Shown one piece after another: positions 20,603-62,804 of a stretch of 64,000 bases of DNA. The first letter of the stretch is position 1; each line of letters begins with the position of its first letter. This DNA is from Mesorhizobium onobrychidis. Its GTDB lineage: Bacteria > Pseudomonadota > Alphaproteobacteria > Rhizobiales > Rhizobiaceae. A program made the translations under genes and the position numbers. The stretch covers positions 6,739,501 to 6,803,500 of the forward strand of contig NZ_CP062229.1 in assembly GCF_024707545.1 (NCBI RefSeq), in the 5' to 3' direction. Below the pieces are notes generated by a model. That model was not told where the DNA came from and ran no database searches. It saw only the letters and a list, made by a program, of their open reading frames with translations.

Positions 20603-20678
20603 TGTCGGAAGTCGGACATGGAAGGCAGCTTACCATTTGGGTCGTTGAAAGCTTTATTCCTTTGGCACGATTAGTGCA
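20603..20678 (+). promoter_or_regulatory. Candidate NifA site plus sigma-54 promoter for the S46 peptidase
   Basis: TGTCGGAAGTCGGACA fits the NifA upstream activator sequence TGT-N10-ACA. After 45 bp comes TTTGGCACGATTAGTGCA, a -24/-12 element with GG and GC separated by exactly 10 bases (consensus TGGCACG-N4-TTGC). Predicted transcription start is about 175 bp before the peptidase ATG. The same spacing recurs at two other loci in the window, which supports function. Confidence 0.72.
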
Positions 20679-20864: not shown

Positions 20865-23024
20865 ATGAACTGCGAATGTGATATGGTTGCTTGGGTAAGT
20901 GCCATCGCCTTGCTCTGGACGGCCACCGCTGCATCGGCGAACGAAGGCATGTGGATGCCGGCCCAGAGTGCGGAAGTCGGCGCGGCCATGCGCGCGGATG
21001 GGCTCCAGATCGATCCCGCGCAGCTGAGCCGTCTGGGCGCTGCCCCGCTTAACGCGATCGTTTCACTGGGCGGATGCTCCGCCTCATTCGTCAGTCCGCA
21101 AGGGCTGGTCGCCACCAACCATCACTGCGTGCTGGAATCCATCCAGTACAACAGCAAGGAGAGCCAAGACTATCTCACCAACGGGTTTCTGGCGAAGAGC
21201 CTGGGTGAAGAATTGCCTGCGGCGCCCGGCAGCCGCATCTATGTGATCGAGGATATGCGGGATGTGACCGCTGACATGCTCAAGGGCGTCTCGGACAAGC
21301 TGAACGGCTTTGCCCGCTATGAACGGCTCGAAGCGAACCGCAAGGCGCTGATCGCCGCGTGTGAAGAACAGCCCAATCGCCGCTGCGACGTAGGGTCCTA
21401 TTATGGCGGCGCCTCCTACTATCTCCAGCAGAAGCTTGAAATTCAGGACGTGCGCCTCGTCTATGCGCCCGGGCTCGGCATAGGTAACTTCGGCGGCGAA
21501 ACGGACAATTGGATGTGGCCGCGCCACACAGGCGACTTTGGCTTTTATCGCGCCTATGTCGCCCCTGATGGTTCATCCCGGCCTTATGCGCGCGACAACG
21601 TGCCCTACCGGCCGAAGAACTGGCTGCGCATCGCCTCTAAAGGCGTGCAAGAAGGCGATTTCGTGATGGTCGCCGGCTTTCCCGGAGCAACCAATCGATT
21701 CCTCACCGCCGATGAAGTCCGGTTCAACTTCGCGCACTACGAACCACTGTCCCAGCGTTTGCTCTCGGATTATGCGGCCCAGATCAAGCAAGCCACGGAA
21801 GGCAATCGCGAAGCGCAGATCCGCTACGCCTCCATCCTACAAGGCGTGGAAAACTACAAGAAGAAGCTGGCGGGCGATCTAGCCGGCGCCGACGCGATCG
21901 GCCTCGACGCGCGCAAGGCTACCGAGGAGGAAGCTTTTCGCGCCTGGGTCGCTGAGTATCCCGTGCGGCAGACGCGCTTTGACGCAGCAATCCGCGACCT
22001 GGACGCGATGGTGGGCGAGAATAGCCGGGCTTCGCTGGCGAGGCTGCGCCAGGCGTTGCTCAATCGCGCGCAACTACTGTCATCGGCACGCACTCTCTAT
22101 CGCTGGACAAAGGAGCACGAGAAGCCCGATGAAGACCGTGAAAGCGGCTTTCAGGATCGTGACCGTAAAGAAATCTCGGATCAGCTGACGCAGATCGAAC
22201 GCCGCTATTTGCCAGACATCGATCGAAAGCTTTTCGAGGCCGCACTCGACGAATATCGCCGGCTGGATGCAAAGGACCGCGATACTGTTTTCGAAAGCGC
22301 TTTGGGCCAAATTGGCCTTGACCGACTTTATGCAGACACCAAACTCGCAGACACGGCAATGCGGCTCGGCTGGCTTGACAAGCCCGCTGCTGCCTTCGAG
22401 GCGTCGGAGGACCCTTTCATCAAGTTGGCGGTCGCTCTCTATCCCGGCGACATAGCTGCGAAGCACGCTGCGAAGGACCGCGCTGGACGCAGCCAGGCGG
22501 CTCGCGCCATCTATATGCACGGCCAGCGTGCCTACCGCCAGGCAATCGGCCGGCCGATGTATCCCGACGCGAATGGCTCGCTGCGCATCACCTGGGGCAA
22601 GGTGGCGGGGCGAACACGCGACGGGCAGATCTGGATGCCCTTTACCACGGCCGATGGACTTCTGGCCAAAGAAACGGGCAAGGGTGAGTTCGACGCTCCA
22701 GATGCGGCTATCGCAGCGATCCGAGCCAAGGATTATGGCCCCTATGCCGCGCCGGCGCTGGGCACGTTACCGGTCGACTTCCTGTCCACCGCCGACATCA
22801 CCAACGGCAATAGCGGCTCGGCCACGCTGAACGGACGCGGCGAGTTCGTCGGCCTCGCCTTCGATGGCACGCTTGATGGAGTGATCTCCGATTGGGCATA
22901 TGCCGCAGACCGCAATCGCAGCATCCATGTCGACAGTCGCTTCATGCTCTGGACCATGGACAAGATTGACGGCGCTAGCCGGTTGCTCAAGGAGATGGGA
23001 GTGCTGCCGGCGTCGCGCTCCTGA
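20865..23024 (+). CDS. S46-family dipeptidyl peptidase (DPP7/DPP11-like)
   Basis: 719 residues; exported serine peptidase that releases dipeptides from oligopeptides. The signal peptide ends near ASANEGMW, the usual S46 N-terminus of the mature enzyme. The chymotrypsin-type triad is visible: His in LVATNHHCVLES (85-88), Asp in GGETDNWMWPRHTGDF, Ser in ITNGNSGSATLNGRG. The length is normal for the family, which is best known from Bacteroidetes and Xanthomonadales, so horizontal acquisition is likely. A GGAGAG ribosome site supports the ATG used; a second ATG six codons in is possible. The candidate NifA/sigma-54 promoter upstream suggests expression in nitrogen-fixing cells, perhaps to use peptides from the host. 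Confidence 0.93.
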   Translation: MNCECDMVAWVSAIALLWTATAASANEGMWMPAQSAEVGAAMRADGLQIDPAQLSRLGAAPLNAIVSLGGCSASFVSPQGLVATNHHCVLESIQYNSKESQDYLTNGFLAKSLGEELPAAPGSRIYVIEDMRDVTADMLKGVSDKLNGFARYERLEANRKALIAACEEQPNRRCDVGSYYGGASYYLQQKLEIQDVRLVYAPGLGIGNFGGETDNWMWPRHTGDFGFYRAYVAPDGSSRPYARDNVPYRPKNWLRIASKGVQEGDFVMVAGFPGATNRFLTADEVRFNFAHYEPLSQRLLSDYAAQIKQATEGNREAQIRYASILQGVENYKKKLAGDLAGADAIGLDARKATEEEAFRAWVAEYPVRQTRFDAAIRDLDAMVGENSRASLARLRQALLNRAQLLSSARTLYRWTKEHEKPDEDRESGFQDRDRKEISDQLTQIERRYLPDIDRKLFEAALDEYRRLDAKDRDTVFESALGQIGLDRLYADTKLADTAMRLGWLDKPAAAFEASEDPFIKLAVALYPGDIAAKHAAKDRAGRSQAARAIYMHGQRAYRQAIGRPMYPDANGSLRITWGKVAGRTRDGQIWMPFTTADGLLAKETGKGEFDAPDAAIAAIRAKDYGPYAAPALGTLPVDFLSTADITNGNSGSATLNGRGEFVGLAFDGTLDGVISDWAYAADRNRSIHVDSRFMLWTMDKIDGASRLLKEMGVLPASRS

Positions 23025-25091: not shown

Positions 25092-26156
25092 TCAGTATTC
25101 CGGCGGCTCGACAGGAGGCCGGGGCAGCGAGTCCAGTTGGTTGGCGGCCACTAGAACTGATTCCACTGCGTCTTGGTGCGTGCACGAGGAAGGATCCATT
25201 CCGTAAGCTTCCTGAATCATCCGTGATGCGATTTCCCTTTGTTGGTCTTCAGGAACACGGGACAATGCGTTGCGCACACTATCGGCGAACTCGGGTGAGA
25301 TCACTTGTACTTCTGCATATTTTTCCCACGATACGGGTGCGTTTTGCCTCCGGCGCAAATTGTTGGCAGTGTATTCATTTGTGTCCGGATGCACGAACGG
25401 AATCAACCCCTCAAGACGGCTTTTCAGGAATTCGGCGGTGCTTTTGTCCATCGACCAAGGACCTTGCTCGGCCGGCTCTCCGCTCCATGCGCTGTCTTTC
25501 AACCGAACAGCGGGACCGTTGGCCCAGGCATCCATGACCACGGTCGACCTCGGGTCGCGGCTTCCGCGCCGCAGTTCGTTCCAGGTGTGACCCGTCTTGA
25601 CTGGGATCTCATCACCTTCCTCGGTTATCTCTTTCATTGACACGGAAGCAATAGAGGTCATACTCCGCTCGTCGGCCGCCATGTGTGGGGCGTGGACGAT
25701 AGCGCAAAGGGGAGCGGTCTGATTGCAGCACGCTGCTCCCATGACTACTGCCACTGCAACCTTGTTGTTGCCGTCTGGTGCCATCATTGCAACCGACGAT
25801 CCGATGCCGTTGTGGCCGTGCGAGGGAATGTCGTCCACCTTAACGTTTCCCCGGCCATGCTTGAGCAGCAGGCGGAGGTCGTGAACTGTTTGCCCCGCTG
25901 TCGCGAGTCTTATCGGGCTCGTGACGTCGTCATGGACGAGACACGCTCCCATATGGTAGGCGGCCTGCTGGATCTGATGTTGCTCCAGAGGCGCATCTCC
26001 GCCCCATCGCAACTTGTCGGCAGGCGTGCCCAGGGAGACCCTCAGCGCTGATATGCTGCTCTCAAAGGCCGACGCCGTGGATTCTCGCGGCGACTCTTCC
26101 GTGTCATATGTGGCATGTCGAGTCGATCCGGAGGATTTGGAGAAGCAAATTCCCAT
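25092..26156 (-). CDS. Candidate type III effector of the HopX/AvrPphE/XopE transglutaminase-like family
   Basis: 354 residues starting MGICFSKSS, a eukaryotic N-myristoylation signal with an adjacent Cys for palmitoylation, as in XopE effectors of Xanthomonas; it predicts targeting to the host plasma membrane. The body fits a Cys-His-Asp transglutaminase-like site: Cys in GAACCNQTAPLCAIVHA, His in PVKTGHTWNELRRGS, Asp in TVVMDAWANGPAVRL. No Sec signal peptide is present, and the first 40 residues are Ser/Thr-rich, as in type III secretion signals. A TtsI box lies about 95 bp upstream. IS6 ends lie within about 20 bp of the stop and beside the box. The family is assigned from remembered motifs; the enzymatic activity is inferred. 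Confidence 0.78.
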   Translation of the reverse strand: MGICFSKSSGSTRHATYDTEESPRESTASAFESSISALRVSLGTPADKLRWGGDAPLEQHQIQQAAYHMGACLVHDDVTSPIRLATAGQTVHDLRLLLKHGRGNVKVDDIPSHGHNGIGSSVAMMAPDGNNKVAVAVVMGAACCNQTAPLCAIVHAPHMAADERSMTSIASVSMKEITEEGDEIPVKTGHTWNELRRGSRDPRSTVVMDAWANGPAVRLKDSAWSGEPAEQGPWSMDKSTAEFLKSRLEGLIPFVHPDTNEYTANNLRRRQNAPVSWEKYAEVQVISPEFADSVRNALSRVPEDQQREIASRMIQEAYGMDPSSCTHQDAVESVLVAANQLDSLPRPPVEPPEY

Positions 26157-52589: not shown

Positions 52590-53403
52590 GTGAAGAAATC
52601 CCTTGCTCCCCTTGATCAGGACAGCACGTTGGTCGCAGTGATTGAGATGAGCCAGACAAAGTGGCTCGTTGCTGCGACGGTCCCTGGCCTTGAACGTCAC
52701 CCTCTCAAGAAGCTCGATGCCGACCCGGATTCGGTGCTCAGGCTGTTGCGCCGCTGGCGCAGCGAAGCCATCCAAGCCGGGCGTGAAGTCCGGCGCATCG
52801 TTGTCGCCTATGAGGCTGGACGCGACGGCTTTTGGTTGGCGCGCTGGCTCCAGGCACGCGCTGTCGAAGCTTATGTCATACATCCATCGAGCGTCGCGGT
52901 TTCCCGCGAACATCGGCGTGCAAGACCGATCGCCTCGATACCGAACTGCTGATGCGCGCCTTTCTTGGCTGGCTGCTGGGCGAGAAGCGCCACTGCAGCA
53001 TGGCAGCCATCCCAACCATCGATGAGGAGGAGGCCCGCCGTCCGAACCGTGAACGAGACAATCTCGTCCGCGAACGTACACGGATCGTCAACCGCATCAA
53101 GGCCGTCCTCGCTCGCTTCGGCATTCGCGCCTTCAAACCTAATCTGCGCAAAGCTGCCGAGAAACTGGAGGCTCTGCATACCGCGGAAGGTATGCCCCTA
53201 CCGGAACGAAGCCGAGCCGAGTTGCGCCGTAATCTCGTGCGTGAACAAATCCACGAGATCGAACAGGAGCGGTTGCGACAGCGCTCGGTGGTTCTGGACA
53301 CGGAGAAGGATCCGCTCGCAATGGTTCGCCTCCTTGCGCAGATCAGCGGTGTCGGTATCGAGACTGCGGACATGCTGGTGAACGAAATTCTCTCACGCGG
53401 CCT
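52590..53403 (+). pseudogene. IS110-family transposase, truncated copy A
   Basis: Reads STLVAVIEMSQTKWLVAATV (first acidic residue), AYEAGRDGFWLARWLQARAV and SVAVSREHRRA. It then loses one base near 52920 and continues TDRLDTELLMRAFLGWLLGE to ISGVGIETADMLVNEILSR. There the similarity to copy B stops. The C-terminal third with the catalytic Ser region is missing. Confidence 0.8.
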
Positions 53404-53670
53404 GCGCGTTAATTCGTCCTCTCCGCCCCAACGCTCTTCGCCAGCTCAACAACGCTTGGCTTTGTTGTTTCATGAGCAGCATTCGCATCTGCCGAGCTTC
53501 CAGGTCCACGCAAAGAACCCGTTGCCATGCAGGATCGCCGTCGCGCAAACCGCCGGTAGCTTTCAGGCTGCCGTCAGCAAAGGCTGCTACAAGGGTTGTT
53601 ATAGGGACAATCAGTTCCCCTTCCGGGGTATTGCCAATCGTTTTAAGCGCCAAGCGGTGCCCTTCGGCGG

Positions 53671-53760
53671 TGTCCGATGTCCGACAATGTCGGATACGCA
53701 ACATAGCAGAGTCCGATAATCACATTGCCAAAACGGTTTTCTCACTTGGCACGTTCGTGC
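53671..53760 (+). promoter_or_regulatory. Two NifA sites and a damaged -24/-12 element before M16 copy 1
   Basis: TGTCCGATGTCCGACA and TGTCGGATACGCAACA both fit TGT-N10-ACA. After 44 bp comes TTGGCACGTTCGTGC, where GG and GC are only 9 bases apart. The same element in copy 2 has the required 10. A one-base loss has probably weakened or killed the promoter. Confidence 0.65.
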
Positions 53761-54017: not shown

Positions 54018-55364
54018 ATGAACCTTCGGTCTGGCTGGTTGCGCGGGACACTTTTTGCGACCGCGCTGGCGTTTGTGACCACCGCTCCGGTTCTGGCGGC
54101 CACCGATGACACCAAGGCAACGCATTTCCTGCTCGACAACGGCATGAAGGTGGTCGTCAACCCCGATCACCACGCTCCCATCGTCACCCACATGGTGTTG
54201 TACATGGTCGGCAGCGCCGACGAGCCGCCGGGGAAATCCGGCATCGCGTATTTGATCGAGCATCTGATGTTCAAAGGGACGGCCAATCACGCCGCCGGGG
54301 AGTTGAACCGCATAGTGGCCGAGATCGGCTGCCTCTACCACGCCTTCATCTCTCACGACTACACCGCGCTCTGCGAAAGAGTGGCTCCCTCGGAATTGGG
54401 GCAGATGATGAGCTTCGAGGCTGACCGCATGCGCAATCTCACCCTAACGGACGATGCCATCGACACCGAGCGGGACGTGATCCTGGAGGAGCGCCGCTTG
54501 ACGATCGACAACGATCCGCAAGCGGTGCTCGATGAGGAGGTGGTCACCGCGCTTTGGCAGAGCCAGCCCTACCGAATCCCGGTGATCGGCTGGATGCACG
54601 AGATCGAGAAGCTGAATCGCACCGACGCCGTGGCTTTTTATGATCGTTACTACCGGCCGAACAACGCCGTGCTAGTGGTGGCGGGCGATGTCGAGCCGGA
54701 GACGGTGAAGGCGCTGGCCGAGAAGACCTATGGCAAGGTCCCGCGTGGACCGGAACTGCCTCCACGCGACCGCCCGTCTGAGCCGGTGCAGAACACCAGG
54801 CGCACATTGACGCTGAGCGATGGCCGCGTTTCAGTCCCCTCCTTCACCAGGCATTGGGTGGTGCCGTCCTATCGCACCGCTGAAGCCGGGGAAGCCGAGG
54901 CGCTAGACCTGCTGGCCCAGATTCTCGGCGCGGGCAACCGCAGCCGGCTATACCAGCAGCTTGTCGTCAAGCAAGGCATCGCGGCCGAGGCCCGCGCATT
55001 TTTCCAGGGCGCCATGCGCGATGACAGCCACTTCAGCATCAGCGGCTCGCCGCGCGGCGACGCCAAGCTTGCCGACATCGGGGCCGCGGTCGACGCCGAG
55101 ATCGCCCGCATAGCCAGGAACGGTGTCACCAGCGACGAGTTGGAGAGGACGAAGGAACGCTATGTCCGCTCCGTAATCTTTGCCCAGGACTCCATCGCCA
55201 ACATGTATGGCCTCACGCTTGCCACCGGCGGCAACGTGAAAGACGTCGAGGAATGGCCGGACCGCATTCGCAAGGTCACCGCCGATCAGGTTAAGGCCGT
55301 TGCCGCCCGCTATCTCACGTCCGACCATTCAACCACCGGTTATCTCTTGCCCAAGGAGAATTGA
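54018..55364 (+). CDS. M16 peptidase homologue, copy 1, with lost zinc ligand
   Basis: 448 residues from [20 protein letters not shown] (signal peptide, cut near VLAATDD). It is strongly similar along its whole length to copy 2 in this window. The M16 inverted zinc motif HxxEH is YLIEH here (GIAYLIEHLMFKG), so the first His ligand is Tyr; nearby conserved positions differ too (CLYHAFISHDYTALCERV against [17 protein letters not shown]). It should therefore be inactive as a peptidase unless recruited as a non-catalytic subunit. Compared with copy 2, an extra C after the equivalent upstream ATG forces use of the internal start. It is followed by a 13-codon stub of the second subunit gene. Confidence 0.8.
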   Translation: MNLRSGWLRGTLFATALAFVTTAPVLAATDDTKATHFLLDNGMKVVVNPDHHAPIVTHMVLYMVGSADEPPGKSGIAYLIEHLMFKGTANHAAGELNRIVAEIGCLYHAFISHDYTALCERVAPSELGQMMSFEADRMRNLTLTDDAIDTERDVILEERRLTIDNDPQAVLDEEVVTALWQSQPYRIPVIGWMHEIEKLNRTDAVAFYDRYYRPNNAVLVVAGDVEPETVKALAEKTYGKVPRGPELPPRDRPSEPVQNTRRTLTLSDGRVSVPSFTRHWVVPSYRTAEAGEAEALDLLAQILGAGNRSRLYQQLVVKQGIAAEARAFFQGAMRDDSHFSISGSPRGDAKLADIGAAVDAEIARIARNGVTSDELERTKERYVRSVIFAQDSIANMYGLTLATGGNVKDVEEWPDRIRKVTADQVKAVAARYLTSDHSTTGYLLPKEN

Positions 55365-55435: not shown

Positions 55436-56935
55436 TCATACCGTCGCTGTTGTGCCAAGCGAAACGTCGTCGAGGTCCTCTTCGATTACTCCGGCCGCGT
55501 ACAACTGATCGAGCATGTCGGCGACAGCAAGGGCGCTTGCGCCGTCCGTCGTGACCCGCATAATCAGCTCCGAGGCTGTACAATTGCCGCACGCGATTGG
55601 ATCGCCAACGGAAATCGGAACGACATCGTCGAGCACCCGGTGTTCAATGTTGCGTGAGCGGAGATGGAAGTACCGGTACCCAGCCTCGTATTGCAGGCCT
55701 CCGCGGAAGCGGATCGGCAGGTTGGGGGGTGGGCTTTCAAGCATATGCTCGTCGATGATGCTCTGGAGCCCCTCCCGGAACTCGTCGGGCGTCCTGAAGA
55801 AACGTTGACCCACAATTCGGTACCCGAGAGGCCAGCGTTCGCTACCCGGTACCGGCGTTACCAGTTGTAAACGTCCCTGCCGCATATTTACGAGGAAGCC
55901 GGAAACACAAGCGATCGTCGTGGGATAACCCTCCGGCAAGGCGATTGCATCATCTTTACTGGCTGCCTTGAGTTTTTCCTTCCGCGCGCGTGCGCGCCCG
56001 GCGAAAGCCTTAGCGGTCGGCGCCTCCTTGCCCTGCAGGACGAGTTCGACCCCCATCAGGTCCTCGGGCGAAAACGCCGCGTGAATCTGATTGAGATGGT
56101 TCGTGCTTAGCACGGAGAAACGATTCGTCACGCCACCGAAGCGTTTGAACAGTTCGAGCACGCGCCTGGTGAGTGCCTCATCCTTGAGCGGTGCGGCCGT
56201 CGTCGTTTGTGGCAAAGCGCCCGTGATTTGATGGTAATCGAGCAGAAAACGGTCGTAGTCCGGGTTATCGATCGGATCTGTGGCCCAGTAGCAGAAGCCA
56301 GTGCGGGCCGCCGAACCAAACATCTCGCTCGCAACACCGACTACGCCGCGCCAGAGCTCTGCATGCTCCTCGCTATATTCAAAGTAACCCTTGAAGCGGT
56401 CCGCCGAGAGGCCACAGAACCAGCAACCGACGGTGCAGCCTTCGCTCAGCTCGAAAGCGATGATGGGGTGCGTGATCGACGGCGCCAATTCGCCCAATTC
56501 GTCGTTACAGCGCCGGATTTGGCGCTCGCGCCACGCATGAAAGCGATGGTCGATCATCGACATTTCGCCTTGGTCGCGCAGGAGGTCGCGATGGTGCGAT
56601 ATCTCGCGCATATATTCGTCCCACAACATAGCCAGCGGCCACGGAGCAGACTCCGGCTTGAAGCGGTACTTCAGGTAGTCACCGCACCAGAGCGGCAGCA
56701 TCTCCAATGGGTCAACTTCAATGCCGTAGCGCTCTGTTAACGCTCGAGGGGCGTCGAGGTTCTCCGCAAGTGCCGTGCGGAATTTCCCGTCGCCGGCCAG
56801 GCGCTCCATGAAGCGCTTGACGTGGGACAACGTGCGCCGTTCCTCCGGCGTGCGCCGGTTGAGAATTTGTCGCCAGTGTTCGGCCAGAGGGTACAGGTGA
56901 GCCCTTGAAGCTGCCCCTTGTAGGCCTGATAGCAT
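55436..56935 (-). CDS. Radical SAM peptide epimerase (RiPP maturation amino acid epimerase)
   Basis: 499 residues. The radical SAM cluster motif is CTVGCWFC (C167, C171, C174; Cx3Cx2C) in IIAFELSEGCTVGCWFCGLS. The flanking sequence (RYGIEVDPLEMLPLWCGDYL; FCYWATDPIDNPDYDRFLLD) is that of the family annotated as radical SAM RiPP maturation amino acid epimerases, related to PoyD/OspD, which convert L to D residues in precursor peptides. A C-terminal Cys pair (DPIACGNCTASELIMRV) could supply the hydrogen donor. It starts 68 bp after the Nif11-type precursor gene in the same direction, so they form an operon. Intact frame. Confidence 0.88.
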   Translation of the reverse strand: MLSGLQGAASRAHLYPLAEHWRQILNRRTPEERRTLSHVKRFMERLAGDGKFRTALAENLDAPRALTERYGIEVDPLEMLPLWCGDYLKYRFKPESAPWPLAMLWDEYMREISHHRDLLRDQGEMSMIDHRFHAWRERQIRRCNDELGELAPSITHPIIAFELSEGCTVGCWFCGLSADRFKGYFEYSEEHAELWRGVVGVASEMFGSAARTGFCYWATDPIDNPDYDRFLLDYHQITGALPQTTTAAPLKDEALTRRVLELFKRFGGVTNRFSVLSTNHLNQIHAAFSPEDLMGVELVLQGKEAPTAKAFAGRARARKEKLKAASKDDAIALPEGYPTTIACVSGFLVNMRQGRLQLVTPVPGSERWPLGYRIVGQRFFRTPDEFREGLQSIIDEHMLESPPPNLPIRFRGGLQYEAGYRYFHLRSRNIEHRVLDDVVPISVGDPIACGNCTASELIMRVTTDGASALAVADMLDQLYAAGVIEEDLDDVSLGTTATV

Positions 56936-57003
56936 GATCTCATCCTCGGACAGTTTCTTCAGACCGGCTCGTCGGAGCCAATGCGCTCAGAGCTAAAATT
57001 GCA

Positions 57004-57381
57004 CTAGGTAGCGACCACAACAACAATTACAATAACTACAACAATCGCGGCGACTGCAGTCTTTTCCCCGATTTGCACAGCACTCATGGGTACAGCCGTA
57101 GCGGATTTAGCCAACGCAGTGGTGTGCACAAGGTTGGTTAAGCCAGAAACGCTGGAACCACGCCTGCGGCTCGCAATCGCGCTGAGCTTCTTACTACTCG
57201 AATTCTGTCGAATGTTTGATCGAATGTAACGTTTAACCTGGTCAAGCGTGATATTGTAGTCGAGGCTCTTTCCAATCGCTACAATCGATGCAAGGCCTCC
57301 AAAGCGTGGTTTGAGCTTTTCAAGCGGACTGCCTTTTTTCCCTAAATCGTTGACGAATCGCTCTACGTCAGTTCGCGGCAT
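57004..57381 (-). CDS. Nif11-leader RiPP precursor with an Ala/Val/Ile C-terminal core
   Basis: 125 residues. Residues 1-53 are a Nif11-type leader (RTDVERFVNDLGKKGSPLEK, GGLASIVAIGKSLDYNITLD). Residues 54-108 are a Ser/Lys/Arg-rich connector (SSSKKLSAIASRRRGSSVSG). Residues 109-125 contain only A, V, I and T (AVAAIVVVIVIVVVVAT). There is no Gly-Gly before the core, so the cleavage point is unknown. GGAGG lies about 13 bases before the ATG. A stretch of beta-branched residues is what PoyD-type epimerases act on in polytheonamide- and proteusin-like peptides. Alternating D and L residues there would form a membrane-spanning beta-helix. The plainer reading is a hydrophobic membrane anchor. Confidence 0.85.
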   Translation of the reverse strand: MPRTDVERFVNDLGKKGSPLEKLKPRFGGLASIVAIGKSLDYNITLDQVKRYIRSNIRQNSSSKKLSAIASRRRGSSVSGLTNLVHTTALAKSATAVPMSAVQIGEKTAVAAIVVVIVIVVVVAT

Positions 57382-57461
57382 AGCTAGTTCCCGCCCTCCT
57401 CAATGTTTCCAACCTATCCGTCTCGCTCTCACAAGCGATCGGACGATGAGGCTGTTAACAC

Positions 57462-57534
57462 GCAAGCGGCGTACCAACCTCAAATGTCTGACTTTGTGCA
57501 TTGTCTGACCGCACGCATTGTCAAGTTGCCGACA
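57462..57534 (-). promoter_or_regulatory. NifA site and sigma-54 promoter of the RiPP operon
   Basis: On the minus strand TGTCGGCAACTTGACA (TGT-N10-ACA), then 42-43 bp, then TTGGTACGCCGCTTGCG. This fits the -24/-12 consensus very well (TGGTACG-N4-TTGC; GG-N10-GC). The predicted start lies about 70 bases before the precursor ATG. An IS110 element begins just upstream of the activator site without damaging it. Confidence 0.8.
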
Positions 57535-57596
57535 TTTTGGGTTCCGAACTCGACAATTGGCCCGCTGCAGAAGCAGGCAAGGTCGCGTCCCCACAG

Positions 57597-58838
57597 GTGG
57601 ATGCTATGGGGCGAGCGGCGAGGGTGTGGCATCCTTCGGCGCTGTCAAAACCACCATCAGAAGGAGGCGCCCCATGTCGCAATCTTTTGACACGAGCCGG
57701 TCCCTTACCGCTCTCGAACAGGATAACACGATCATCGCCGTCATCGAAATGAGCAAGGCGAAGTGGCTCGTCGCCGCGCTTGTTCCGGGTCTCAAACGCC
57801 AGCCGCTGAAGAAGATCGATGCCGACGCGCCAGCACTGTTGAAGCTGCTGCAGCGCTGGCGCGACGAAGCCGGCCGGGCCGGGCATACGATCAAGCGGAT
57901 CGCCGTCGCCTATGAGGCGGCCGGCGACGGCTTCTGGCTGGCGCGCTGGCTGCGGGCGCACGGCATCGATGCCTATGCCATCCATCCCTCGAGCGTTCCA
58001 GTGTCGCGCGAGCACCGCCGCGCCAAGACCGATCGTCTCGACACCGAGCTTTTGATGCGTGCTTTTCTCGGCTGGCTGCGCGGCGAGAAACGTCATTGCT
58101 CCATGGCTGCGATCCCGACACTCGAAGAGGAGGACGCGCGGCGGCCGAACCGCGAGCGGGGGACTCTGGTCGGCGAGCAGACGCGGCTCATCAACCGCGT
58201 CAAGGCGATCCTCGCCCGCTTCGGGGTCCGCAGCTTCCGGCTGAGCCTGCGCCAGGCGGCGGACAGGCTGGAGAGCATCCGAACGGCGGAGGGAACGCCG
58301 CTGCCGGACAACACCCGCGCCGAGCTCTACCGCTTCCTTGAGCGCCTCAACCTCGTGCGCGCGCAGATCCGCGCCATCGAACAGGAGCGCCTGCGCCGGC
58401 TGGCGGCGGCTCCGGCTGCGGCGAACGGTCACGCGATGGTTCGCCTGCTGGCGCGGATCATCGGCATCGGCGTCGAGACCGCCGACATGCTGGTTCACGA
58501 GATCCTGTCGCGCCCGTTTGCGCGACCGCCGCGCCGTGGCGGGCTATGCCGGGCTTACAGGGTCGCCAGACGAGAGCGGCCAACGCCGCCGCGAGAAAGG
58601 GCTGGCGCGCGCCGGCAATGCCCGCGTGCGGCGCGGCATGATCCAGTTGGCGTGGCGCTTTCTCCTGTTCCAGAAGGACAGCGACCTGGCCCAATGGTTC
58701 CAGGCGCGCACGAGCGACGGCCGCAAAACCACGCGCAAGACGATGATCGTGGCGCTGGCACGCAAGCTGCTGATTGCGCTGTGGCGTTTCGTCACCGCGG
58801 GCGAGGTGCCGCAGGGCGTCATCGTGCGTGCGGCGTGA
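57597..58838 (+). pseudogene. IS110-family element copy B, transposase frameshifted once
   Basis: The transposase starts MSQSFDTSRSLTALEQDNTI and reads through ARIIGIGVETADMLVHEILS. One base is off near 58512, and the natural end (AVAGYAGLTGSPDESGQRRR, REKGLARAGNARVRRGMIQL, ending GVIVRAA) is in another frame. The non-coding left part, from GTGGATGCTATGGG to the ATG, is shared with copy C and would carry any guide RNA. Confidence 0.8.
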
Positions 58839-59405
58839 TGGAGGCACGTGGGAAGAGGGAGAACAAGGCACACCCCAATTGGCGGGCCCGCAGCAGGGTC
58901 TGCCGATGACGATCCGAGGTGGCGGCAACCCGAAGCTACACATGGTCCTTCGGACCGCCGGCGTAGAATAGGCCCCGCCGCCCCGGAGCTTCGCCACCGA
59001 TGCGCATGCTGCATCATGGTCAGATCCCACTGCGATCTACCGCATACAAGTCTGCCGCGCGACCTTCGCGCCTGGCTCGGCGAGCTCGCCTCGGAAATCT
59101 GTCGTCGGCATTTGGCCCCCACTGGAAACGGCTCACCCGACCCGGCAAAGCCTGCCGCCCGTGCTCGTGACCGTCAAGGACAAGTCGCTTCGCGATGGGA
59201 GCCTGCGGCCCACCCTTAACCGTCACTGCGCGCGGCGGCCAGTTCGAAGCCAGGTCGGCACGAGGAGATGGTCGCCAATCGAGATGGTCGCCAATCGGCC
59301 CGAACGAGGAGATGAGGAAACGAACCAGGAGCAAGCTTGACAATCATCGCCCCATACAGGTGTAGCTCGGCGGTAGCGAAGCCGCTCGCGAGCGCGCCCT
59401 CCATA
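58839..59405. other. Transposon debris without a supported gene
   Basis: About 570 bp between two IS110 copies. Some frames look briefly protein-like (SLPRDLRAWLGELASEICRR) but none can be assigned, and a short repeat GAGATGGTCGCCAATCG occurs twice in tandem near 59265-59300. Confidence 0.4.
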
Positions 59406-59980
59406 AGCGCTGTAGATGCTATGGGCGGCGGCGAGCGTGTGGCACCCTCGGCGCTGTTGAGCAGCTACCCAAGGAGCGCCCCCATGTCACCATCCTTTGA
59501 TGCAAGCAAATCCCTTACCACCTTGATCAAGACAGCACGTTGGTCGCAGTGATTGAGATGAGCCAGACAAAGTGGCTCATTGCTGCGACGGTCCCTGGCT
59601 TTGAACGTAACCCTCTCAAGAAGCTCGATGCCGACCCGGATTCGGTGCTCAGGCTGTTGCGCCGCTGGCGCAGCGAAGCCATCCAGGCCGGGCGTGAAGT
59701 CCGGCGCATCGTTGTCGCCTATGAGGCTGGACGCGACGGCTTTTGGTTGGCGCGCTGGCTCCAGGCGCGCGCTGTCGAGGCTTATGTCATACATCCATCG
59801 AGCGTCGCGGTTTCCCGCGAACATCGGCGCGCCAAGACCGATCGCCTCGATACCGAACTGCTGATGCGCGCCTTTCTTGGCTGGCTGCTGGGCGAGACGC
59901 GCCACTGCAGCATGGCAGCCATCCCAACCATCAATGAGGAGGAGGCCCGCCGTCCGAACCGTGAACGAGACAATCTCGTC
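59406..59980 (+). pseudogene. IS110-family element, truncated copy C
   Basis: Shares the left end with copy B, and the transposase start (MSPSFDASKSL). It goes out of frame at once and continues VAVIEMSQTKWLIAATVPGF, nearly identical to copy A, to RRPNRERDNLV. There it is cut off and joined to an unrelated fragment (DETLDPKIFDVPFKRDEAVA) that looks like the end of another gene. Confidence 0.75.
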
Positions 59981-60116
59981 TCGACGCGGCTCAGGCCGAC
60001 GAGACCTTGGATCCCAAGATCTTCGACGTTCCATTCAAGCGCGACGAAGCCGTCGCCCTTCTTCGCTCGCCCTATGGACTGGCCTAGCAGGAGATCGTCT
60101 TAGGGCGACCATTCGG

Positions 60117-61223: not shown

Positions 61224-62804
61224 ATGATCACCTCACCCAAAAATACTGCCGAACGTTTCCCTAAGGCATCCAAAGATGAGCCTCGTGTGAGGCCTGGCAG
61301 CATGCTGGCGGCACATCTGGCTCGGGGCTGGCCACCTACTCACTCTCTCCCACTAAGTGCGGCGAGCACGCAGCACCTTCAAATTAAGGGACAACTCACT
61401 TCGCCTCGAACTTTGCCCATCGTCCGGTCACCACAACCGAAGCCATCGATGAATCTTTGGTCTGGCTGGGTGCACAGGACACTTTTTGCGACCGCGCTGG
61501 CCTTCGTGACGACCGCTCCGGTTCTGGCGGCCACCGATGACATCAAGGCAACGAATTTCCTGCTCGACAACGGCATGGAGGTCGTTGTCATCCCCGATCG
61601 CCGCGCGCCGATCGTCACTCATATGGTGTGGTACAAGATCGGCAGCGCCGATGAGCCGCCGGGCAAGTCCGGCATCGCCCATTTCTTCGAGCATTTGATG
61701 TTCAAGGCGACGACCAACCATGCGGCCGGCGCGTTCGACCGCGCCGTCTCCGCCATCGGCGGTTCGAACAACGCTTTCACCTCCTATGACTACACCGCCT
61801 TTTACGAGACGGTGGTGCCGCAGGCGCTCGAGCAGATGATGGATTTCGAGGCCGATCGCATGCGCAACCTCATCCTCACCGACGACGTCATCGCCACCGA
61901 GCGCGACGTCATCCTCGAGGAACGCCGCTCGCGCATCGACAGCAATCCGCAGGCAGTGCTCGGCGAGGAGGTTGACGCCACGCTCTGGCAGAACCAGCCC
62001 TATCGCATTCCGGTGATCGGCTGGATGCAGGAGATGGAGAAGCTGAACCGCGCCGACGCCAAGGCTTTCTACGACAAATATTATACGCCCAACAACGCCG
62101 TGCTGGTGGTGGCCGGCGATGTCGAGCCGCAGGTGGTCAAGGCGCTGGCCGAAAAGACCTATGGCAAGGTCGCGCGTGGTCCAGACCTGCCGCCGCGCAT
62201 CCGTCCGGTCGAACCCGAACAGAACACCAGGCGCACGGTGACGCTGGCTGACGCGCGTGTCAGCGTGCCGAACTTTTCGACGCAATGGGTGGTTCCCTCC
62301 TATCACACTGCGAAGCCGGGTGAAGCGGAAGCGCTGGACCTGCTGGCGGAGATCCTCGGCGGCGGCAGCCGCAGCCGGCTGTACCAGCAGCTTGTCGTCA
62401 AGCAAGGCATTGCCGCCGAGGCCGGCGCCTTTTTCCAGGGCACCATGCTCGATGCCACCAACTTCACCGTCTATGGCGCGCCGCGCGGCGACGCCAAGCT
62501 GGCCGATGTCCAGGCGGCGGTCGAAGCCGAGGTCGCCCGCATCGCCAAGGACGGCGTCACATCAGGCGAGTTGGAGAAGGCCAAGGATCGTTTCGTCCGC
62601 TCGATGATCTTCGCCCGCGACAAGCAGGATTCGATGGCCAACATCTACGGCGCGACACTCGCCACCGGCGGCAACGTCAGGGATGTCGAGGAATGGCCGG
62701 GCCGCATCCGCAAGGTCACCGCCGATCAGGTCAAAGCCGTTGCCGCCCGCTATCTCGCGTCCGACCATTCAACCACCGGCTATCTCTTGCCCAAGGAGAA
62801 TTGA
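61224..62804 (+). CDS. M16 zinc peptidase (insulinase family), catalytic subunit
   Basis: 526 residues from the ATG behind AAGGAGAAG. An N-terminal extension of about 75 residues precedes a typical signal peptide ([18 protein letters not shown]). The inverted zinc motif HFFEH is intact (153-157, [20 protein letters not shown]), with the downstream Glu region [19 protein letters not shown]. The length of the mature part (about 425) is that of M16B peptidases, which work as heterodimers with a non-catalytic homologue; that partner starts 4 bp after the stop. Such pairs occur as leader peptidases in some RiPP pathways. M16 enzymes also degrade host peptides in rhizobia (HrrP, a longer M16A type). 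Expected location: periplasm. Confidence 0.92.

Follow-up and report, generated by a model that had tools for sequence, protein, structure and literature searches.

A stretch of 64,000 nucleotides of the Mesorhizobium onobrychidis genome, hereafter the window, contains on its minus strand a precursor peptide open reading frame (ORF) followed by an ORF for a PoyD-family radical SAM peptide epimerase, with a gap of 68 bp from the precursor stop. Both genes are open, and nifH lies ~212 kb from the locus in the same genome. The initial annotation had proposed that this pair makes a ribosomally synthesised and post-translationally modified peptide (RiPP) under nitrogen-fixation control. The ORFs, their spacing, the tail of the precursor and the promoter elements that it described were all found where it had placed them. 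The features of the locus are listed below; labels beginning with L and G denote loci and genomes used for comparison.

57004..57381, minus strand: precursor peptide gene, 125 aa, with a Nif11-like leader and a hydrophobic-ended core
57394..57399, minus strand: GGAGGG resembling a ribosome-binding site ahead of the precursor ATG, as read from the sequence
57160..57171, minus strand: codons 71-74 (Ser-Arg-Arg-Arg), of which residues 71-72 align with the putative Gly-Gly leader-cleavage motif of relatives
57007..57165, minus strand: predicted core, residues 73-125, its probable boundary placed by alignment to the VGG-bearing precursors of L105 and L054
57007..57057, minus strand: last 17 residues, A, V, I and T alone by composition, the proposed target of alternating epimerisation
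55436..56935, minus strand: PoyD-family radical SAM peptide epimerase, 499 aa (TIGR04517, 563.3 bits)
56414..56437, minus strand: C167-x3-C171-x2-C174 radical SAM cluster motif
55907..55909, minus strand: C343, a candidate hydrogen donor and putative equivalent of PoyD Cys372
57519..57534, minus strand: TGT-N10-ACA, a NifA-type upstream activating sequence (TGTCGGCAACTTGACA) that begins 153 bp ahead of the start codon
57461..57476, minus strand: sigma-54 -24/-12 promoter TGGTACGCCGCTTGCG, which begins 95 bp ahead of the start codon

The epimerase score exceeds the curated cut-off of 325 bits for TIGR04517 (rSAM_PoyD); the generic Pfam Radical_SAM model stays below its threshold (16.7 versus 29.5). 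The three cluster cysteines, as well as C215 and C343, are invariant in all 50 intact distinct epimerases that we compared. PoyD is described as epimerising every second residue from the C- to the N-terminus, with a conserved cysteine (Cys372) as the likely hydrogen donor (PMC8326336). One of the two conserved cysteines outside the cluster motif, C215 or C343, is thus a candidate for this role. The ratio of non-synonymous to synonymous differences (pN/pS) was 0.15-0.38 in nine epimerase pairs, seven of which included the window, and the epimerase is under purifying selection. A PDB sequence search with the epimerase gave no match at an E-value of 1.

We determined how widespread the two genes are. 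A protein search with the precursor returned 24 proteins at an E-value of 1 or better, and those with a named source came from Mesorhizobium, Sinorhizobium/Ensifer, Rhizobium and Bradyrhizobium. Among plasmids, the precursor was found in 46 records, all from Rhizobium, Sinorhizobium, Mesorhizobium or Aminobacter. The epimerase was found in 60, comprising 58 from those four genera, one from Nostoc and one from Kovacikia. The epimerase family is large outside rhizobia, with 1129 proteins at an E-value of 1e-30 or better (7,999 candidates scored). A related-locus search yielded five loci. In total, 59 loci were examined, 58 rhizobial and one from Nostoc. A family precursor is located at most 3.5 kb upstream of the epimerase in 57 of the 58 rhizobial loci, L067 being the exception. 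Redundant loci are included in this count, as are broken genes (split in L005 and disturbed in L066). In the Nostoc locus, the precursor 1.5 kb from the epimerase is of a different kind and matches only distantly. This recurrence answers the possibility, raised beforehand, that epimerase homologues never accompany Nif11 precursors. Together with the TIGR04517 score and the cluster cysteines, it bears out the proposal that precursor and PoyD-type epimerase form a RiPP unit.

The genomes that carry the epimerase are largely those with nitrogenase genes. Of 146 genomes in the window's genus, 22 contain an epimerase match, which exceeds the cut-off in 18. All 22 also carry nifH over cut-off, compared with 97 of the 146 overall. 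For the genus of G035, which we took to be Bradyrhizobium, the epimerase was found in 27 of 242 genomes (24 over cut-off). There nifH is present in 26 of the 27, versus 146/242 overall: it is over cut-off for 24 among the matches listed, and for G602 and G737 the best E-value served as the criterion, whereas G757 has only pieces. Hypergeometric tails for this company are 5e-5 and 9e-6, respectively; they ignore kinship and serve as indications. An order-wide sample, with the epimerase in four of 397 genomes and one over cut-off, was too thin for use. The locus is within 10 kb of nifH in NGR234 and NXC14, and near fixABCX-nifA-nifB in R. leguminosarum A1.

We also looked at differences in gene content among the loci. 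The full loci L006, L054 and L069 contain the precursor, the epimerase, a GNAT protein, a C-methyltransferase, an HlyD-like protein, a C39-ABC exporter and a second ABC protein, with an S46 peptidase 6-8 kb upstream; L054 and L069 carry the same epimerase. The L054 methyltransferase, exporter and HlyD-like protein pass TIGR03975, TIGR03796 and TIGR03794, respectively, its GNAT protein passes PF00583, and its second ABC protein scores 697.1 versus 709.4 for TIGR03797. A middle grade, with the methyltransferase and with or without the GNAT gene, includes eight Rhizobium loci (among them R. johnstonii 3841), two S. meliloti loci (among them pHRB800), three Mesorhizobium loci (among them M. huakuii L045) and 12 of 20 Bradyrhizobium loci. 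On pHRB800 (L042, 7658-9936), described as the hrrP plasmid (PMC7230169), the epimerase and C-methyltransferase are preceded by a tandem array of four genes annotated as Nif11 precursors, one of which is split. The minimal grade comprises the window, NGR234, L052, S. americanum, the remaining Mesorhizobium loci and eight of 20 Bradyrhizobium loci. No methyltransferase lies within 10 kb of L044 and L055. L004 is a 4.2-kb contig, so the absence of neighbours there says little. L007 and L039 contain the exporter and GNAT genes as fragments beside an intact epimerase.

In the window, no C-methyltransferase, GNAT or NHLP exporter gene adjoins the locus. The C-methyltransferase was not found in the window's genome with a query that matches many loci by tblastn but had no positive-control genome of its own. 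The best match for a dedicated exporter in that genome is a C39-ABC protein at 7.10 Mb (G000:C1:7102705-7104795), ~93 kb from nifH; at only 28% identity to the NHLP exporter, it was rejected as such. To place the grades, an epimerase tree was built from the 59 loci minus four with broken or short epimerases (L065-L068) and five duplicates, leaving 50. The window falls within a supported clade (98/98) whose 14 members, all intact and of the minimal grade, come from Mesorhizobium and Sinorhizobium; we labelled it group A. The eight minimal Bradyrhizobium rows form a separate clade. Because of this tree (midpoint root, very long Nostoc branch) and the fragmentary exporter and GNAT genes of L007 and L039, the window's branch appears to have been reduced by loss rather than to represent a state before gain.

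The precursor model was built without the fragments P0020, P0023 and P0024, and later alignments also without P0008, P0017 and P0019. The window precursor is 49% identical over 94 aa to that of L054 (Aminobacter), which passes the Nif11-leader model TIGR03798 (35.5 versus a cut-off of 32.3); the model matches seven of 22 aligned relatives at an E-value of 0.01. No nitrile-hydratase-like leader model in Pfam or NCBIfam matched the precursor, and the leader aligns to Nif11 relatives. A PDB sequence search with the precursor gave nothing convincing.

A Gly-Gly-type cleavage motif is missing from the window precursor, which has Ser71-Arg72 in its place; VGG is kept in L105, L054 and L045. The same alignment columns read LDAIVGGKQDLS in minimal Bradyrhizobium precursors, LDAIVGGKHHSS in Aminobacter and LSAIASRRRGSS in the window. 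Because the VGG-keeping relatives align there, the ancestral cut probably followed residue 72, which would give a core of ~53 residues (73-125). The precursor terminates in AVAAIVVVIVIVVVVAT, whose final 17 residues are solely A, V, I and T. The initial annotation had taken these 17 residues as the entire core. Their composition holds in the window copy, but judged by alignment they are only the end of the core. Among 20 distinct minimal-kind precursors, the last 17 residues consist of 51% V, 22% A, 10% I and 7% L. The pN/pS of the precursor is moderate (leader 0.43, middle 0.68, tail 0.58; six genes). AV-dipeptide steps separate three M. loti-type tails (L064, L062 and L060). Such steps would preserve an alternating register, yet may be mere repeat slippage.

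Control of the locus was assessed through its upstream regions. Eleven TGT-N10-ACA sites occur in the window versus 6.2 expected, a count reached by seven of 100 shuffles, and since this is within chance we rejected the motif alone as evidence. The -24/-12 box has one mismatch to TGGYACR-N4-TTGCW. Four such boxes occur in the window (at most one mismatch, GG and GC intact), two of which, those of the precursor and of an S46 peptidase, have TGT-N10-ACA at most 160 bp upstream. The promoter rises above chance because it is conserved across genomes. In a survey of 50 distinct 260-bp upstream regions against 20,000 random draws, a box with at most one mismatch was present in 33 regions versus 0.62% of draws, and an exact TGT-N10-ACA in 11 versus 3.3%. 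At the same threshold, the box was found in 11 of 13 distinct group A regions, all six Mesorhizobium/Aminobacter group B regions, both S. meliloti regions, two of ten Rhizobium group B regions and 12 of 19 Bradyrhizobium regions, the last rising to 19/19 at two mismatches. An exact TGT-N10-ACA is also present in L004, L005 and L043, and GGT-N10-ACA at a like place in NGR234 (L002), L008 and L052. As a separate observation, the Rhizobium loci L040, L047 and L048 have FNR/FixK-like TTGA-N6-TCAA boxes further upstream where a near sigma-54 box is missing.

Published data on relatives bear on expression. In Bradyrhizobium DOA9, nif11 expression was reduced in rpoN mutants in free-living microaerobic cells, and a box TGGCACGCTCCTTGC was placed at -76 (PMC13207237). 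L117 (Bradyrhizobium) has the same -24/-12 box, the final base of which is 76 bp ahead of the ATG. In nodules of an M. huakuii 7653R abiEi mutant, MCHK_RS31560 (Nif11) and RS31565 (epimerase) changed by log2 -4.35 and -4.46 (PMC8436566, Table 4). The same table includes a second Nif11 gene (-6.00), an N-acetyltransferase (-3.22) and a 'maturation protein 1' (-3.03), alongside nif and fix genes and two sigma-54 factors. The gene order given there (tyrosinase, oxidase, Nif11, epimerase) is that of L039, although the paper says pMHa and the record is named pMHb. MCHK_12735 was detected in M. huakuii bacteroid protein, with a ratio of 0.50 in a hypE mutant (PMC10454058). It is the L045 precursor, and the identical sequence of the L039 precursor makes the two indistinguishable in those bacteroid data. 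A Nif11 protein of 14.45 kDa, pRL100099, appears in a nodule proteome comparison of R. leguminosarum (PMC7105596) and probably corresponds to the L040 gene. The nodule-stage expression proposed for the locus is thus borne out for its relatives (PMC8436566, PMC10454058). In these papers, the genes appear as table entries or as a name in a gene list. Our searches of open-licence literature, a scope outside which most subscription journals fall, gave no paper devoted to this family.

We propose, with a probability of about 0.6, that the window contains a RiPP operon of the symbiosis region, reduced to two genes, which makes a nodule-stage, partly epimerised, membrane-active peptide that acts near the bacteroid envelope. 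Transcription of precursor and epimerase in the nodule would depend on sigma-54 RNA polymerase and an activator, for which NifA is the likeliest candidate. The Nif11-like helical leader would deliver the precursor to the PoyD-type enzyme. The epimerase would remove the C-alpha hydrogen at alternate V, I and A residues of the tail and return one from the opposite face, probably via a conserved cysteine. Because PoyD acts on every second residue, an alternating L/D stretch of gramicidin length is predicted in the V/I/A tail; it would be protease-resistant and beta-helical, and such a helix may be membrane-active. In relatives with the full cluster, the peptide would also be C-methylated, perhaps acylated by the GNAT protein, cut after Gly-Gly and exported. 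The window's branch would do without methylation. Because Gly-Gly cutting and the dedicated exporter appear to have been lost, another peptidase probably cleaves its peptide at a basic site, or the peptide stays uncut; it would act in or near the bacteroid's own envelope. A more specific form of this idea is a gramicidin of ribosomal origin, expressed under nitrogen-fixation control. Its L/D tail of 17 residues would fold into a beta-helix, and such helices would pair across the membrane of the bacteroid or symbiosome, giving an ion channel of nodule physiology and not a secreted toxin, and related rhizobia would have exported, C-methylated long versions. We regard this version as doubtful.

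Several results weigh against the proposed operon. Some concern its control. An exact TGT-N10-ACA occurs in only four of the 13 distinct group A upstream regions, and two of the 13 (one common to L061 and L068, the other from L066) have no -24/-12 box. In Rhizobium group B, seven of the ten loci have no sigma-54 box in the 260 bp upstream, and four of these seven have none within at least 1.5 kb; L049-L051 have a box ~1.5 kb upstream. In the 260-bp survey, the regions of L040, L047, L048 and L053 were those ahead of the first open piece and not of the annotated start; a scan of up to 3 kb at these loci gave no box with at most two mismatches save one at 7899 in L047. The published NifA-RpoN promoter list for M. 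loti R7A contains no such locus (carriage of the locus by R7A was unchecked). Of the NifA/sigma-54 control in the initial annotation, the sigma-54 part is well supported by the conserved promoter and the RpoN dependence reported for a free-living relative. That NifA rather than another sigma-54 activator drives the locus is likely, on the indirect evidence of the 11 exact TGT-N10-ACA sites in 50 regions, and with the R7A list against it. The leader is a further point. The window precursor scores below the cut-off of the Pfam Nif11 model PF07862 (13.1 versus 23.8 bits) and does not match TIGR03798. Its earlier assignment as a Nif11 precursor therefore stands in the sense that it appears Nif11-like by homology to the TIGR03798-positive L054 precursor, rather than by passing a Nif11 model.

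The tail is less uniform across the family than in the window. The NGR234 tail, AVAAVVQLVVIVVHVSS, contains Gln and His, so that the all-A/V/I/T composition fails for the family. These two residues, and the 36 predicted core residues that precede the tail, would suit a peptide that is epimerised without being membrane-forming: a protease-proof signal or inhibitor that binds a bacterial or plant protein, its tail serving enzyme recognition or self-association. Proteusin activities are indeed said to be largely unknown, with polytheonamide an exception (PMC8326336). Against such a role, the tail is kept to V, A, I and L at 90% of positions, with L at 7%, which fits a membrane better than a binding face. 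We consider this reading possible, though unlikely.

The AlphaFold model of the precursor (mean pLDDT 61.5, a confidence score) has leader helices and values below 50 for residues 74-106. It draws the tail (109-124) as a low-confidence helix; D residues are beyond the model's scope. Such a helix, with a mean hydropathy of 2.8 over the last 19 residues and a net charge of +6 over residues 59-105, could represent a simple membrane anchor, i.e., an ordinary transmembrane tail of L residues on a Nif11-like protein, with the epimerase working on something else. Against this, such a precursor is followed by an epimerase in almost all rhizobial loci. An anchor also fits poorly with a tail that is half Val and has little Leu, and with the Gly-Gly motifs and exporters of relatives. 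A simple anchor is improbable.

Gene integrity is the last point on that side. Broken or partial epimerases were found in G401, G404, G432, G497, G413, G424, G464, one G478 copy and several genomes of G035's genus. Considered with the damaged precursors of L005 and L066 and the gene fragments in L007 and L039, they could indicate a fading remnant, in which a minimal locus that lost exporter and methyltransferase decays without a finished product. In the window both genes are open, however, and the epimerase pN/pS indicates constraint. The promoter is kept in most distinct group A upstream regions, and group A is a clade of intact epimerases. We consider decay improbable, and retain the reduced operon as the preferred reading.

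Other genes in the window include mutually related transposase-like ORFs, some broken, that flank the locus (57518-58909, 52590-53719 and 59540-60103). Two M16 peptidase copies (61449-62801 and 54018-55361, both plus strand) are each preceded by a tandem TGT-N10-ACA pair (61094/61111 and 53671/53688); the first lacks HxxEH, and the ORF after each copy appears shortened. A role of M16 peptidases as the dedicated leader protease was not supported. They occur on 50 plasmid records at an E-value of 1e-60 or better, and because only 14 of the 50 also figure in the set of 60 with the epimerase, the M16 peptidase looks like a general symbiosis gene. The gene for the window S46 peptidase (20865-23021, plus strand) is preceded by TGT-N10-ACA at 20603 and a -24/-12 box at 20663. 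It shares 85.5% identity with its S46 counterparts on the plasmids that carry the full clusters L054 and L069. Seven rhizobial plasmid records have this peptidase, four of them with the epimerase, which makes it only a lead as a partner. An ORF of 354 aa (25092-26156, minus strand) with the N-terminus MGICFS had no Pfam match at an E-value of 0.001.

The above results point to a conserved, nif-linked family of likely epimerised Nif11-type RiPPs, of which the window copy is a reduced member. If so, the family would link D-amino-acid RiPP chemistry with a plant symbiosis at its nitrogen-fixing stage. The family is present in mutant-tractable strains (NGR234, R. johnstonii 3841, S. meliloti USDA1963 and Bradyrhizobium DOA9). 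Its loci range by degrees from clusters with an exporter to the precursor-epimerase pair alone, so that one can ask what purpose each polytheonamide-like step serves.

Gramicidin A has ~15-17 hydrophobic, V/A/L-rich residues, and is non-ribosomal and Trp-rich. The window tail is similar in length and composition, with alternating L/D residues proposed, but its peptide is ribosomal. The polytheonamide-type proteusins (PoyA/PoyD, PoyB/PoyC) share the PoyD-family epimerase and a V/A-rich core, and the window's relatives add a radical SAM C-methyltransferase (TIGR03975). Unlike these proteusins, the window has a Nif11-like and not a nitrile-hydratase-like leader, no adjoining C-methyltransferase, its hydrophobic stretch at the C-terminal end, and sigma-54/nif control. 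Channel activity is described for polytheonamide (PMC8326336, PMC9505594). Epipeptides (EpeE/YydG products) are likewise described as having radical SAM epimerisation of Val and Ile and a membrane effect (PMC8326336), but with two epimerisations only. Nif11-leader RiPPs with NHLP export (TIGR03798) have a homologous leader, and NHLP exporter genes are present in L006, L054 and L069. The window differs from them in its sub-cut-off precursor, its lost Gly-Gly motif and the lack of an adjoining exporter, and its modification, judged by the enzyme, would be epimerisation.

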